DNA of 5,570 bases from Lachnospiraceae bacterium. Its GTDB lineage: Bacteria; Bacillota_A; Clostridia; Lachnospirales; Lachnospiraceae. Positions 1 to 5,570 of this stretch are shown here, one piece after another (positions within the stretch are counted from its first letter, which is position 1; every line of letters begins with the position of its first letter). A model generated the notes under the pieces. That model did not search any database. It saw only the letters and a list, made by a program, of their open reading frames with translations, and was not told where the DNA came from. The stretch covers positions 1-5,570 of the forward strand of contig JAFXWR010000241.1 of the NCBI GenBank assembly GCA_017542725.1, given 5' to 3'. The position numbers and the translations under genes were made by a program.

Positions 1-554
1 AATTCATTTTTTAATCTTATAAGCTCATACTGCATCTCTTGTCTGAGTTTTAAATCAAGTGCACCAAGCGGCTCATCAAGAAGTAATAACTTTGGTTCAT
101 TTACTATGGCTCTTGCTATAGCGATCCTTTGTTGCTGTCCTCCAGATAATGCATCAATATCTCTCTTTTCATATCCTTCAAGATTTACAAGTTTAAGTGC
201 ATATTTTATTTTATCGTTAATATAATCTTTACTCTTCTTTTTTATTTTTAATCCAAACGCAATATTATCAGCCACATTCATATGCGGAAACAATGCATAC
301 TTTTGAAACACTGTATTGAGCTGTCGCTTTTCTGGTGGCAAATTAGTTATATCTTTGCCATCAAAAAAAACCTGTCCCTTGTCAGGAGTTAAAAATCCAC
401 CAATAATTCTAAGAGTGGTAGTTTTCCCACAACCTGATGGTCCAAGTAATGTAACAAAAGAATTCTCTTTAATTGAAAGGTTTAAATCATCTAAAACTAC
501 TTCATTATCAAAATATTTTGTAATATTAACTAAATCAATTAATTTGTTTTCCAA
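1..554 (-). CDS. potA: Spermidine/putrescine-type ABC transporter ATP-binding protein PotA (3' end beyond window)
   Basis: This is the cytoplasmic ATPase that powers polyamine import together with PotB, PotC and PotD, which would lie beyond the left edge. The visible 184 residues contain a complete set of ABC motifs up to the edge: Walker A GPSGCGKT (38-45), Q-loop Q84 in [10 protein letters not shown], signature LSGGQ (136-140), Walker B LLLLDEP (156-162) and D-loop GALD (164-167). The H-loop and the C-terminal TOBE domain are off the window. The phrases [20 protein letters not shown] and [11 protein letters not shown] are typical of the PotA subgroup of the MalK-like importers. The start is taken as TTG at 552-554, giving MENKLIDL, because PotA proteins usually begin this way and no ATG exists in this frame nearby. 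A GAGAGG Shine-Dalgarno sequence lies 10 nt upstream. An ATG at 557-559 is better spaced but is in another frame and stops after six codons. The gene has its own promoter (614-642). The family is certain; the polyamine substrate is inferred from similarity. Confidence 0.93.
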
Positions 555-613: not shown

Positions 614-642
614 ATTATATAGTAAAACAAACCATTTATCAA
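614..642 (-). promoter_or_regulatory. Sigma-A promoter of potA (TTGATA-N17-TATAAT)
   Basis: On the minus strand a -35 box TTGATA (637-642) and a perfect -10 box TATAAT (614-619) are separated by exactly 17 nt. Transcription should start near 605-607, leaving a leader of about 50 nt before the potA start. The -35 box overlaps the TGA stop (639-641) of the upstream permease gene. potA therefore begins a new transcription unit with no intergenic spacer and no visible terminator in front of it. Confidence 0.85.
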
Positions 643-1331
643 GCACTAAATATTGTCGTCTTTTTAGCCACAGAAATCAATATAAGTGCCACTATGACAC
701 AAAACAATGCGTAGATTATTGCCAAAAATGTATTATTGAGCAGGCGATGCAAATAATACATATTTATCGCTGTCAAAACAATCCCTATGACATATGACAC
801 TATGGTCGTGGCGTTTTCGTCGATGAACCGAGTAGATACATACAAACAAATAGACGAAAAAAGCATTGCATAACTTAGTATTATAATCAATAATCTCAGC
901 ATCTTTATTACTCCGAAGCCACCAAAGTAAAACGATATAACTATTATAGGGAACGATGAAACCAGCAAAATTAGAAGCGTTGATAATCCCCTAAAGTATA
1001 CGGCATACACAATATCTCGCATGCTAATTCTAACCGACAATAAATGCTCTATAATATTCTTTTTATACAAATCACTTAATGATCGCGACAGTAAAATTGG
1101 AGCAAACAAATCAATTATAAAAAATAAAAGCATAATTGCAATATTATAAAACAGCTTTATCTGACTATAATCTAATTCCCCATTTGTATTGCCATTTGAA
1201 ATAATTACATTGGCAAAAATTAACATGATGAGTGACAATATTGTATTTTGTGCAATTAAACACATAAGTAAAACTCTCTGCTTCACATACACTTCATTTA
1301 ACCTTTTTAATATTTTTACAATATTTCCCAT
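639..1331 (-). CDS. ABC-2-type membrane permease (GldF-like), six TM segments
   Basis: This 230-residue integral membrane protein is probably the membrane-spanning partner of the adjacent ABC protein. Six hydrophobic segments are visible at about residues 18-44, 58-80, 112-134, 143-166, 172-194 and 202-222. Between the second and third lies a cytoplasmic amphipathic stretch (about 81-111, including SRSLSDLYKKNIIEHLLSV). It matches the position and style of the ABC-2 family segment just after TM2, where Glu-rich sequence precedes a 'LL..pis...i' motif. That layout and length fit GldF and other small ABC-2 permeases. The ATG (1329-1331) follows the ATPase stop by one base and has an AAAAGGA Shine-Dalgarno sequence (1336-1342) inside the end of the ATPase gene. 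It is the last gene of the four-gene operon. Substrate is unknown. The C-terminal tail ends shortly after TM6 (KKTTIFSA) with no extra domain. Confidence 0.8.
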   Translation of the reverse strand: MGNIVKILKRLNEVYVKQRVLLMCLIAQNTILSLIMLIFANVIISNGNTNGELDYSQIKLFYNIAIMLLFFIIDLFAPILLSRSLSDLYKKNIIEHLLSVRISMRDIVYAVYFRGLSTLLILLVSSFPIIVISFYFGGFGVIKMLRLLIIILSYAMLFSSICLYVSTRFIDENATTIVSYVIGIVLTAINMYYLHRLLNNTFLAIIYALFCVIVALILISVAKKTTIFSA

Positions 1332-1332
1332 G

Positions 1333-2259
1333 CTATCCTTTTAATCTTCCGAATAACTGTTCAAATCTTACTCTTTGCTTTTTGAAAGAATAAACTTCTA
1401 TTTTATTTTCAACTAATTCTTTTAGTATATCTGCCTCAATTTGATTCCTTGTATTGGAATAAGTTATGTTTGGCACTATGGAAAAAGAAATAACTCTATC
1501 AGTATACACAATATTAGTGACATCCTGATTCTTCTTCAACACTTCAATTGCCTCTTGCATCTTATCTATAACTTCTAACTCAATTTTATTACTAAGCTCT
1601 GCCTTCTTGTATACCTCTTCTTTTTTACCATAAGCTACTAAGTTTCCATTCTCAAGCACCACAAGATGAGTTACTATATCTTCAATATGGTTTAAACTTC
1701 GTGTTGCAAATACTAAAGTCTTCTTACCAATCAAGCTTTTAATATATTCCAGTAATTTATCGTTAAAGTCTGCATTATCACTTGAAAACAAATTGTCAAA
1801 TAGAATTACATCAGGATTATTAATTGATATTCTGATTAATTCTACTAACTTATAATTTTCATTATCAATCTGGTCAAGACTTGTGTATTTATATGACATA
1901 AGAGAAAACTTTTTTAGCATATTATTTATATAAGTATCTAACTCATCATTATTCTCTTTACCATATATGCTTCCGTAAAAACTCAAATACTCATTGACAG
2001 TAATATCTGGATCTTTTTCTCTCGTCTCGTGAAGAATATCAATTTTACAGTCCGTTAAATCATTGATATCAACACCATTATATAACACTTCGCCATAATA
2101 ATTCTTATAAGTGCCTGTAAAAACCTTAAATATTGAGCTCTTACCAGAATTTCTGTTTCCCAGGATGCACATTACTGCATTATTAGGTATATCAAACGAT
2201 AATTCATTTAATATGTCTATGTTGTTAATATTCAATTTTAAGTTCTTAATTTCAATCAT
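1333..2259 (-). CDS. ABC ATPase-like protein with degenerate catalytic motifs (GldA/CcmA-type)
   Basis: This 308-residue protein has the architecture of an ABC-2 exporter ATPase but lacks key catalytic residues. The Walker A motif is intact as GNRNSGKS (34-41). The Walker B aspartate is kept in VILFDN (D155), but the catalytic Glu is Asn156. The signature position, set by distance to Walker B, reads IDNEN (131-135) instead of LSGGQ. The H-loop His is Arg187 in FATRSLNHIED. The Q-loop region reads LHETREKDPDITVNEY (76-91), resembling the 'LPE...Y..mTV.EY' segment of GldA-like proteins, without a Gln. A C-terminal extension (about 226-308) ends in FEQLFGRLKG, like the 'LE..F..LT' tail of this family. 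ATP binding looks possible; hydrolysis by a homodimer looks unlikely. The ATG overlaps the upstream stop as ATGA, and no good Shine-Dalgarno sequence is seen, so translation is probably coupled. It should pair with the downstream permease. The frame is uninterrupted, which argues against random decay. Confidence 0.85.
   Translation of the reverse strand: MIEIKNLKLNINNIDILNELSFDIPNNAVMCILGNRNSGKSSIFKVFTGTYKNYYGEVLYNGVDINDLTDCKIDILHETREKDPDITVNEYLSFYGSIYGKENNDELDTYINNMLKKFSLMSYKYTSLDQIDNENYKLVELIRISINNPDVILFDNLFSSDNADFNDKLLEYIKSLIGKKTLVFATRSLNHIEDIVTHLVVLENGNLVAYGKKEEVYKKAELSNKIELEVIDKMQEAIEVLKKNQDVTNIVYTDRVISFSIVPNITYSNTRNQIEADILKELVENKIEVYSFKKQRVRFEQLFGRLKG
1336..1342 (-). promoter_or_regulatory. 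Ribosome binding site of the permease gene
   Basis: AAAAGGA (minus strand) lies 4 nt upstream of the permease ATG and within the last codons of the ATPase gene. It is the only clear Shine-Dalgarno sequence at the operon's internal junctions. It supports the ATG at 1329-1331 as the true start. Confidence 0.6.
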
Positions 2260-4505
2260 TTCTTCGCGATGACCCTTGGAACCGGCAAACTAATCTTTCG
2301 GTAGAGCGGATCCCTACTCAAAGGATTGTATTTTATAATTATATGATTATTTGGCATAAGATAGTTACTAATCATATTAGAATCTATCACATTATTTTGT
2401 ATTTCCTCATAGCTATTTGTTGCATAATTAAACGCCAATATTTCTCCATAAAATGGTACATACGATTCCAACGCACCATGATCATAATTGTCTATTCTCT
2501 CAAAATATATCTTACTCACATCTTTAATTTCTTCCAGCGAATACTCATTAACTACTTCCATATCACCATTAATAGTGTTAGTATCATTGTCATAATAGCC
2601 TTCTATAGTATTAACTGCATTTTCCAACAAACAGTAATCAGCTACATCCAAACTTACTTCCTTGTTAATTTTTGTTACCAATAAAGTTCTACCATATACA
2701 TCTCCTACATCGCTAGAGTTAATATCAATAGTACCATTATTATCTATAAACCCAAACAACAAACCGTAGTCATAGTATCCTAAAATACTATCATCCAAAT
2801 AATATTTTATTATATTTCTATTACTATCATCCGATATAATATCCGATATCATTAAATTATTGCCTATAGGTGCTCCAATATTTGTAGCCCTTGATAATGA
2901 TATGCTACGATTTGGCTCTATATCCCCAATCTGTACAATCTTCCCGAAGAGCAGAATACTTGCATTCTTAATTGTTAGATTCATTTTATTTGTAATTCTT
3001 CCTGTAATTTCACCATCAAACCTCTGGAAGGAACAATCCAAATTATATACATCATTTAGATAATTACTATTTTCATATACAAATATATTTGAATCAAAAT
3101 CTTTTGCATTTTCAACAGATATAATTTTTCTGTCTCCTTCTTCATAAAATATAGTCGACTTAATAAGTTTTGAATCCATGAAGTTATAGCCTACTATCGG
3201 CTCTCTATTATTTTGCAAAATTGGATTTAACTTAATATTTGTACTTGTATCAAAAGAATAATTGCCATTTTCACTAGTTCTAAAATTCAAAAATGCTGTT
3301 TCTTTCGTATTTGCATCCTTTATATTGACGATACTTATATATGTTAAAAATGTATTCTTCTTCATTACCGAATAACCTATAAAAACCATTATAATAGTAT
3401 ATATTATAGAAAAAATGGCAGCATATTTTCCATATTGTTCTCTCATATTTATATTTCTCAAAAAAACATATATGATAATAGTCAAAAAAGCAACATAAAA
3501 TACAAGAAGAACTGTGATAATAAATATGTCGGGCAATTTCTTTTTATCAACTATGTTGAGAATGTTTCCAATATTATAGTAATCATTATTGATATATGAA
3601 TTGTAACTATTGCTCAGTTTTTGAATCCACTGTTCATCTACACATTTTGTTAAAAGCTCAACAAATTTCTTATCAGCATCTTTAAGTTTCCCAAAATTAG
3701 TGAAGCTATCCGAAACCAAAACGACTATGCTACTATCAAAATTCAGTTTATTAACTTGTATTCCACTCTCAATGCCATCAACTTTTTTTGTATCATCGGT
3801 ATTATGTATAAATGAAGGAATACTTTTATTTCCATGTTCCTTTCCTATACCGACAAATATAGGTTTTCCATTATTAACCAAAGAATAGAGTGAATCATTC
3901 AAATAATCCAAAGAGGCTACATCATAATCAGAAATAACAAGCATATCTATAGTATCTAGATAATTTTTATTATTTCTCACCTTTTCCACATCTATAGGGA
4001 CAATCTTTGTTTGAATTGTGCTATTTGTCAAAAGTAAGTTATCTAAATAAGATAGTGTATTGTATTCAGAAGATAAAATACCAATAATTAAATTTTCATT
4101 ATAAAATGACAAATCAATATTAGTTCTTTCATTTGCAACTAATTCTTCTTTTCTATTATATAAATTTATAATTACAGTATTTGATGTATTTGTTATCGAA
4201 ATTGTTCTATTGTATACATTTGTTGATCTAGCACTAATATCAACATCAATTCTATATACAAATACGGAATGATTATTCTCGTAAACATTGATTGTAAGAT
4301 AACCTTTAAAGTCCTGCGTATCCCTATTTTCCACACTTAATTCTATAGGTAATTCGGATCCTTTTTTTGCAACTTTATTTATGCCATAATTTAAATTTAT
4401 ATTGACATTTTCGGCAAAAGTATAAAAATTAAACCTAAACAAACAAAATAAAAGTGCTGTGCACAAAAAAGTAAAAATTTTAATATTTTTCATACAAACT
4501 TTCAT
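2256..4505 (-). CDS. Exported, membrane-anchored GldG-like ABC-associated protein
   Basis: This 749-residue protein is not a named family that I can identify with certainty. A signal peptide is visible (Lys-rich start, hydrophobic core about 11-30, likely cleavage after TFA at residue 31; no lipobox). A predicted beta-rich domain (about 32-135) follows, then an alternating beta/alpha segment (about 137-222: LIIGILSSEYNTLSYL, DMLVISDYD, GKPIFVGIG). The latter resembles the GATase-like fold of GldG-type ABC accessory proteins. Two TM helices (about 326-349 and 361-381) flank a short basic loop (RNINMREQYGKY), placing both large domains outside the cell. The C-terminal 365 residues look beta-rich and Asn/Asp-rich, with no motif I recognise. 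The ATG (4503-4505) shares one base with the kinase stop; a second ATG four codons in is an alternative start. Given its operon position it is probably the extracytoplasmic partner of the ABC protein and permease, possibly binding ligand or cell-wall material. Confidence 0.75.
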   Translation of the reverse strand: MKVCMKNIKIFTFLCTALLFCLFRFNFYTFAENVNINLNYGINKVAKKGSELPIELSVENRDTQDFKGYLTINVYENNHSVFVYRIDVDISARSTNVYNRTISITNTSNTVIINLYNRKEELVANERTNIDLSFYNENLIIGILSSEYNTLSYLDNLLLTNSTIQTKIVPIDVEKVRNNKNYLDTIDMLVISDYDVASLDYLNDSLYSLVNNGKPIFVGIGKEHGNKSIPSFIHNTDDTKKVDGIESGIQVNKLNFDSSIVVLVSDSFTNFGKLKDADKKFVELLTKCVDEQWIQKLSNSYNSYINNDYYNIGNILNIVDKKKLPDIFIITVLLVFYVAFLTIIIYVFLRNINMREQYGKYAAIFSIIYTIIMVFIGYSVMKKNTFLTYISIVNIKDANTKETAFLNFRTSENGNYSFDTSTNIKLNPILQNNREPIVGYNFMDSKLIKSTIFYEEGDRKIISVENAKDFDSNIFVYENSNYLNDVYNLDCSFQRFDGEITGRITNKMNLTIKNASILLFGKIVQIGDIEPNRSISLSRATNIGAPIGNNLMISDIISDDSNRNIIKYYLDDSILGYYDYGLLFGFIDNNGTIDINSSDVGDVYGRTLLVTKINKEVSLDVADYCLLENAVNTIEGYYDNDTNTINGDMEVVNEYSLEEIKDVSKIYFERIDNYDHGALESYVPFYGEILAFNYATNSYEEIQNNVIDSNMISNYLMPNNHIIIKYNPLSRDPLYRKISLPVPRVIAKK

Positions 4506-5570
4506 TAAATATTTGTCTTAAACACTACCTTAAACTCAGTTCCATCAGAGTCAGATTTTACAGATATATCTCCGCCATGAAGTTCCACTATGCTCTTTGC
4601 AATCGCTAGTCCAAGTCCCGTGCCTCCAGTAGCGCTTGTTCTTGAGTTATCTACTCTATAAAACTTTTCAAAAATCTTCTTTAATGCTTCCTCCGGTATA
4701 AGTTGACCGAAATTTATAACACTAACTTCTACAATATCAAGTTCTTTATTGTTCTTAATTTTAATAATTATATGTTTTCCGTCCTTGCCATACTTTATCG
4801 CATTATTAATTAAATTTTCAAATAGACGAACTATAAGTTTGGGGTCTAGGTTTAATATCAAAGAATTGACATTACTTTGTATGCTACATTCCAGGTCGTT
4901 ATTCTCAAAAAGCGGATAAAGCTCTGAAACTAACTGATTTAAAAGTTCTATTAAGTCTATTCTTTCTTTGTTTACTGCAAGTTCATCACCATAATTCATC
5001 TTTGTAAATGAGAACAGGTCCTCTATAAGCACCTCAAGTTTTTTTGACTTTTCAAATGCAATTCCAAGATAATCCTGCTTCTTTTCTTTAGGAAGGTTTT
5101 TGTTATTGACCAGTATATCCAGATAACCAATAATTGAAGTAAGTGGAGTTCTCAAATCATGTGCTATATTTGTTATAAGTTCATTTTTTGTCTTTTCACT
5201 TTCTTTTTCACTTAATATCAATTTATTGATGGTATCCTGCATTATATTGATATTAAATGCCATCATCGATAACTCATCATCGCCCTTTGACTCAATTTTA
5301 CTATTCAAGTCTCCTTTTGACATTCTTTCTATGCCCATATATATTTCTTCAATATAACTATGTCTTTTTCTTTCCAAGAATATAAAAGTTATAGCAAAAG
5401 CAACAATGCCTAATAGTAAAAATAATATCAATGAATAAAGATTGATATTTTCTTTATTATCTTCCAAGATTATAGTGTTATAAACCAAAAAAGAAGTGAA
5501 CGCAAATAAAATAATACTTGCACTTATTACATTTAATACAAATCGACCGTAATAATTTTTAAATAGTCTA
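4505..5570 (-). CDS. Two-TM HAMP sensor histidine kinase, VanS-like (5' end beyond window)
   Basis: This membrane kinase would autophosphorylate on a His and pass the phosphate to a response regulator, probably encoded just upstream outside the window. The frame stays open to the right edge, giving 354 visible residues with no in-frame ATG, GTG or TTG in the first 27; the TTG at 5486-5488 is therefore an internal Leu codon. In visible numbering, TM1 is about 10-30 and TM2 about 46-65, separated by an external loop of only about 15 residues. A HAMP domain (about 66-118) with MSKGDLNSKIESKGDDEL follows, then HisKA with the H-box NIAHDLRTPLTSIIGY and phospho-acceptor His137 (codon 5159-5161). 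The ATPase domain has N-box ENLINNAIKYG (ending near 261, key Asn256), F-box FEKFYR and G2 box GGTGLGLA (315-322). The G1 box reads NFGQL (from Asn286) instead of DxGxG, as I recall for some VanS-like kinases. The gene overlaps the next by one base, so the kinase probably serves the same ABC module. Confidence 0.92.
   Translation of the reverse strand, partial: RLFKNYYGRFVLNVISASIILFAFTSFLVYNTIILEDNKENINLYSLILFLLLGIVAFAITFIFLERKRHSYIEEIYMGIERMSKGDLNSKIESKGDDELSMMAFNINIMQDTINKLILSEKESEKTKNELITNIAHDLRTPLTSIIGYLDILVNNKNLPKEKKQDYLGIAFEKSKKLEVLIEDLFSFTKMNYGDELAVNKERIDLIELLNQLVSELYPLFENNDLECSIQSNVNSLILNLDPKLIVRLFENLINNAIKYGKDGKHIIIKIKNNKELDIVEVSVINFGQLIPEEALKKIFEKFYRVDNSRTSATGGTGLGLAIAKSIVELHGGDISVKSDSDGTEFKVVFKTNI

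Follow-up and report, generated by a model that had tools for sequence, protein, structure and literature searches.

A gut bacterial genus in which an ABC exporter module has probably become a scaffold or sensor

Heterodimeric ABC exporters such as TAP, CFTR, Pdr5, TmrAB and BmrCD pair a consensus nucleotide site with a degenerate one. Degenerate sites are described as common in such exporters, and that of Pdr5 has Asn for the catalytic Glu and Tyr for the H-loop His (PMC7756269). In B. subtilis, RbsA and NupO are described with one degenerate site each (PMC11466899). Other ABC modules serve signalling: in the Bce module, the ABC protein is described as having no membrane transport capability and as needed to activate a kinase which itself has no dedicated sensing domain (PMC10314905), and the signalling of BceAB–BceRS is tied to ATP-driven cycling. 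In FtsEX, the ABC protein acts as a signal transmitter rather than a transporter, and from FtsE variants in the ATP-binding and hydrolysis residues both processes are reported to be essential for CwlO activity (PMC7828314). A limited search of the open-access literature (titles and the starts of abstracts) returned no bacterial ABC module in which both sites are degenerate and nothing on the operon described below; degenerate sites are known from heterodimers, whereas a genus-conserved module without any consensus site was not found in that search.

The window analysed here is a stretch of 5,570 nucleotides from a Lachnospiraceae genome (GCA_017542725.1, contig JAFXWR010000241.1). It carries most of an operon that is spread across the Lachnospiraceae, with the order response regulator, histidine kinase, 749-aa membrane protein, ABC protein and permease; the response regulator lies outside the window and was observed in the closest relative. 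The features referred to below are the following:

639..1331, minus strand: ABC-2-like permease, 230 aa, with about 60 residues missing around the last two predicted TM helices
1333..2259, minus strand: ABC ATPase-like subunit, ORF of 308 aa with ATG start and C-terminal extension, a candidate pseudo-ATPase
1699..1701, minus strand: Arg187 (codon CGA), in the place of the H-loop His
1792..1797, minus strand: Asp155-Asn156, the Walker B Asp being kept and the catalytic Glu replaced by Asn156
1855..1869, minus strand: IDNEN at the ABC signature position (residues 131–135), where relatives have LSRGM
2137..2160, minus strand: Walker A GNRNSGKS (residues 34–41), an intact P-loop
2256..4505, minus strand: membrane protein of 749 aa, the large partner conserved with the ABC protein and permease
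4505..5569, minus strand: VanS/PhoR-type sensor histidine kinase with HAMP, HisKA and HATPase_c, cut by the window edge

The initial annotation described an ABC protein with intact frame and fold in which the signature, the catalytic Glu and the H-loop His were all replaced. Residue arithmetic confirms every coordinate, residue and codon of these replacements, and in the alignment to same-operon relatives IDNEN lies over LSRGM, Asn156 over the Glu of DEP and Arg187 over the His of SSH; the D-loop is changed as well (SSDNA versus SGLDP). The 308-aa frame is open, and its PF00005 match (51.4 bits, cut-off 25) marks a true ABC protein. The fold, too, is intact as predicted by AlphaFold2 from 23 sequences: the model averages a pLDDT of 81, with means of 77–96 for the blocks of residues 1–220 and values below 50 for residues 290–308. 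Among the 50 Foldseek matches listed, all were ABC ATPases or ABC transporter subunits (4yer, LptB, MlaF and others), the best being 4yer at E 1.6e-17. The protein resembles the GldA/DrrA-type ATPases in that these NCBIfam matches cover almost its full length, but it scores far under both cut-offs (second-best match, DrrA-type TIGR01188, 76.2 bits versus 312.45; third-best match, GldA TIGR03522, 75.1 bits versus 402.6). A GldFG-type gliding system was not recognised, given this score below the GldA equivalog cut-off and a large-protein partner outside any Pfam family; the “GldG-like” label that the neighbour had received could not be confirmed, for the latter reason.

A scan of 84,980 species, each represented by one genome (the method detects close relatives only), returned a single close match, L001, while the remaining loci kept were at most 28% identical. 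L001 comes from a Lachnospiraceae MAG of goat reticulum, and its ABC protein is 89% identical to that of the window and has the same replacements. Its genome, G001, was used as the centre of the genus and family comparisons. In the family of G001, the 749-aa protein was matched in 73 of 299 genomes, G001 counted. The ABC gene follows the large-protein gene in all 29 family loci listed from these 73 genomes besides that of G001, and the permease is present in 28 of the 29 (in L098 the stretch ends first); regulator and kinase genes also lie upstream in 20 larger stretches and in L001. The nearest genus, that of G001, has the large-protein gene in 12 of 12 genomes. Nine of these (L001, L157–L164) are largely syntenic over the compared stretch, where PotABC follows the operon and genes for a glycosyltransferase, an ABC-2 exporter permease and an acyltransferase precede it. 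In G308 the five operon genes are kept among different neighbours, and the copies of G309 and G310 lie on short contigs, where the gene order is seen as far as the contigs reach. The ABC-2 export permease and acyltransferase genes that precede the regulator in the nine genomes (L001:4434-5994) recur as a pair in three of four long sister-genus stretches (L172–L174), L175 having only the acyltransferase; such neighbours suggest a cell-envelope context. A viral or other mobile origin was rejected after a scan of viral contigs without any relative, and so was a plasmid origin, the best 10 of 1075 matches being ABC proteins of 21–28% identity and all 1075 lying below 60%.

Only one ABC protein had been noted in the visible operon. 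This stands for the module itself, while a canonical PotA-type ATPase gene with LSGGQ and DEP, the first of the PotABC set, comes next in the window (3..554, minus strand). PotA is found next to the operon in nine of the 12 genus genomes and not in G308, the contigs of G309 and G310 being too short; in nine long stretches of other genera, no PotA adjoining the operon was seen.

The 749-aa protein matched no family in a Pfam search. By hydropathy (Kyte–Doolittle, a crude guide), it has an N-terminal signal or TM segment and two central TM segments; a structure model built on two sequences was of no use (mean pLDDT 30), and a sequence profile search of the PDB gave only three beta-galactosidases at E 0.08–0.6, which we counted as no result. 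For the window kinase, the family search matched no sensor domain. The loop between its predicted TM helices has 17 residues in nine of the 12 genus loci, L001 included, 25–29 in the three deep-branching ones and 22–31 in nine other loci examined. In one locus with a canonical ABC protein (L171, G151), the histidine kinase is present as two ORFs of 307 and 185 aa.

Of the 12 genus genomes, 11 show the ABC gene (the G309 contig ends before it), and 10 of these 11 genes are without the signature, the Glu and the His. The eleventh, from the deep-branching member G310 (L125, G310:C60), was read over 234 residues only, the contig ending inside the gene; its signature is lost (LTRFE), and both DEP and the H-loop His are kept. 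In an ABC tree calculated without the motif columns, the window and the 10 genus rows with all three losses form one clade (support 100/99). The signature is absent in all 11 rows of this clade, the Glu position holds Asn in 10 and Asp in one (L119), and the His position holds Arg in 10 and Asn in one. In the inner clade, which comprises 10 of these members with L124 left out, Walker A Gly39 and Lys40 and Walker B Asp155 are invariant, position 156 is Asn in nine rows and Asp in one, and Arg187 is Arg in all ten, encoded by three codons (CGA, CGG, AGA); PF00005 is matched by all ten proteins at E <= 0.001. The letters at the signature position drift among orthologues and IDNEN is not strictly kept, whereas Asn156 and Arg187 are conserved, the replacements recurring at 48–89% identity to the window protein. 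One species (L117) has Asp in place of the first Walker A Gly, and the A-loop aromatic residue, at the position we take to be the right one, seems to be missing in most of the triple-loss clade. A single decayed allele or an assembly error was rejected because another 10 sequences, each from a different genome, share all three losses.

Beyond the genus the picture is different. All 28 rows of the family sample have an LSxG signature, Glu and His (L088 was excluded as a member of the sister genus). In the order sample, the large protein was matched in 105 of 392 genomes and 30 loci were listed; 22 of the 24 new ABC rows are complete over the motifs and all 22 are canonical, and the two rows cut before the end of Walker B both have the signature. 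The complete same-operon ABC rows beyond the genus and its sister are canonical in 50 of 50 cases, some of these rows (L211–L214) being nearly identical to one another. Homologues with normal motifs in the same context had been named in the initial annotation as the mark of one decayed allele; they exist outside the two genera but not inside the genus of the window, which indicates a clade-level conversion of a canonical ATPase. The ABC family of this operon is unusual even with normal catalytic residues, as the Q-loop Gln position is Asp (VPDFFGVY type) in 52 of 52 same-operon rows beyond both genera.

The sister genus (that of G180) has the large protein in all 17 genomes and 15 readable ABC genes. 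The Glu is kept in all 15, the signature is replaced in two and the His in seven (Ser and Asn and Arg twice each, Glu once). The seven rows (L088, L129, L131, L134, L135, L138, L142) present a natural series of partial losses. On the large-protein tree, each of the two genera is a clade (99; 12 and 14 rows), and they are sisters with an SH-aLRT of 93, a value under the tool's star. The minimum numbers of changes on the 68-row tree are four for the His, two for the signature and one for the Glu; counted by eye under irreversible loss, the His was lost six times.

The permease of the window has no Pfam match; it aligns with the permease of the relative L086, which matches ABC2_membrane_2 at 1e-14. 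Permeases, with starts assigned mechanically, measure 229–232 aa in the genus, 234–279 in the sister genus and 270–344 in 25 others read. The difference is concentrated in the stretch with the last two predicted helices: 55–56 residues in 11 of 11 genus rows (56 in the window) and 59–62 in 15 of 15 sister-genus rows, versus 97–128, mostly 111–124, in 25 of 25 other permeases, the shortest being those of L255 (97) and of L236 and L254 (106). The missing residues are split over two alignment gaps, the first lying between the last two helices and the second at the last helix, a pattern that leaves the exact borders of the deletion uncertain. Some of the longer permeases checked show an extra hydrophobic segment in this region by hydropathy. 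TarGH has two re-entrant helices, EH1 and EH2, which are situated between TM5 and TM6 and labelled extracellular gate helices (PMC7078476). Judged by length (56 residues versus 97–128), the segment that Type V exporters have between TM5 and TM6 is absent here, and from its position the missing segment is probably the equivalent of the gate helices. All losses of catalytic motifs in the sampled rows fall within the short-permease clade, which makes up 28% of the large-protein tree length; with this fraction (0.28), the estimate for all events falling inside the clade is 0.0017 for five independent events, 0.0005 for six and about 0.006 for four. Because the deletion in the permease happened just once, its association with the ATPase losses is not replicated independently on the permease side. 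The same-operon modules of other Lachnospiraceae are alike in gene order, in the C-terminal extension of the ABC protein, in the large partner and in the short-loop kinase, but they differ in having an LSRG- or LSKG-type signature, Glu and His (50/50) and a longer permease (25/25).

Slow decay of a module no longer needed, its ATPase and permease drifting to loss, would agree with the stepwise and partly independent motif losses in two genera and with the permease deletion, yet it seems unlikely to us. The ABC protein, permease and large protein do evolve faster than the neighbouring regulator and PotABC genes, a pattern that also fits relaxed constraint, and in one sister-genus genome (L137, G326) an in-frame stop splits the large-protein gene into ORFs of 478 and 378 aa. 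In the genus of the window, however, the large-protein gene is retained 12 times out of 12 with no internal stop, none was found in the ABC frames read, which include 10 of full length, and the replacement residues are conserved at the identities given above. Of the 308 columns, 63 are invariant in the inner clade, Gly39, Lys40, Asp155 and Arg187 among them. Between the window and G001, amino-acid changes are few relative to synonymous ones (Nei–Gojobori dN 0.054 and dS 2.08 for the ABC protein, 0.055 and 0.92 for the large protein, 0.088 and 1.56 for the permease), the ratios being rough because synonymous sites are near or at saturation, in most other pairs too. The suggestion that more than the decay of one allele is involved is thereby upheld by 10 further triple-loss sequences, conserved replacements and frames without stops. 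Residual hydrolysis through unusual residues, with Asn or Asp after Walker B and Arg as a substitute for the H-loop His, is quite improbable: in its favour are the conservation of Arg187 and Asn156, an intact P-loop and Walker B Asp, and the Asp that L119 has at the Glu position, but loss of both Glu and His usually abolishes hydrolysis in ABC ATPases, and here the signature is lost too and the probable gate segment is gone from the permease.

The least probable of the alternatives is that the protein forms a heterodimer of the TAP, TmrAB or BmrCD kind, in which it would be the degenerate partner of a canonical ATPase encoded elsewhere. It would place this protein in a common class, as noted above; the same genomes encode many other ABC ATPases, and a canonical PotA adjoins the operon in the window and nine of the 12 genus genomes, though it sits beside its own PotBC. 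A heterodimer half usually retains the element that the partner site requires, whereas here Glu, His and signature are all lost from one chain. The partner search used the canonical same-operon ABC protein of L086 against the 12 genus genomes and, as a control, its source genome G121. The best non-operon match has an E value of 1.1e-28 to 1.4e-31 in 11 of the 12 and 1.2e-41 in G311, while the control returned its own gene plus paralogues at 1.2e-50 and 3.4e-43. The G311 match (G311:C12) was rejected as a partner, having other membrane genes beside it and neither the large protein nor a matching permease by profile. The module holds no second consensus-site chain, and no same-family paralogue stands out in the 12 genus genomes except in G311, so the pairing considered in the initial annotation found no candidate there. 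A pattern scan of the 30 loci listed by this search (27 from genus genomes, one of them the G310 operon gene) found the T/S-H motif in 29 and D-E-P in 19, the pattern being loose and the 11 absences of D-E-P pattern misses; among these loci, the other ABC proteins gave no indication of H-loop loss.

We lean towards the explanation that a former exporter lost a permease segment and then its ATPase chemistry, and that what is left persists as a scaffold or sensor which only binds ATP and transports nothing, perhaps in the service of the kinase. The ancestor would have been an ordinary ABC-2-type exporter module in an operon of regulator, kinase, membrane protein, ABC protein and permease. In the common ancestor of the two sister genera, a segment close to the last helices of the permease, probably comprising the exit-gate helices, would have been lost. 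Afterwards the ATPase may have come under looser constraint, with repeated losses of the H-loop His in the sister genus, and the genus of the window would then have lost the signature, the catalytic Glu and the H-loop His. The remaining ABC subunit, kept by selection, would bind nucleotide, hydrolyse it very slowly or not at all, and keep permease and large membrane protein in a conformation that is either fixed or set by sensed ATP. Without transport, the module would probably serve for scaffolding or sensing, with the neighbouring kinase, itself lacking a sensor domain, as the most plausible recipient. The ATP-binding, non-hydrolysing role proposed at the outset agrees with the retention of the Walker A Lys and the Walker B Asp.

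This candidate scaffold shares the kinds of replacement seen in the degenerate sites of TAP, CFTR, Pdr5, TmrAB and BmrCD, whereas its module encodes no partner with a consensus site; moreover, Pdr5 has also lost the Walker A Lys, which the window protein keeps. With BceAB–BceRS it shares a two-component system joined to an ABC module, a kinase without sensor domain and an unconventional ABC protein (PMC10314905), but BceB is a permease of a different type (PMC11466899). The 230-aa window permease gave no FtsX-type Pfam match and is instead homologous to ABC-2 permeases. To our knowledge, Bce modules have no large partner protein. Hydrolysis is held to be required in FtsEX (PMC7828314) and BceAB (PMC10314905), and a binding-only function is therefore without a close precedent in the literature found; for the same reason a kinase link in the present operon, if real, must use binding or static assembly. 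Such a link, argued by analogy, is a possibility to which we would give somewhat less than even weight. We put forward just as tentatively that gate loss followed by loss of hydrolysis at both sites may have produced an ATP-binding, non-cycling scaffold for two-component signalling, with the sister genus and the deep-branching genus member as intermediates.

Most studies of degenerate ABC sites have dealt with asymmetric pairs, in which such a site is one of the two halves. A genus-wide module without a consensus site would separate the role of ATP binding from that of hydrolysis in a natural system. Related genomes hold intermediates in which the signature is lost with Glu and His kept, or the His is lost with Glu and signature kept. 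The permease truncation apparently came before the ATPase loss, and the order of steps by which a transporter becomes a non-transporter is thus open to study in these bacteria.
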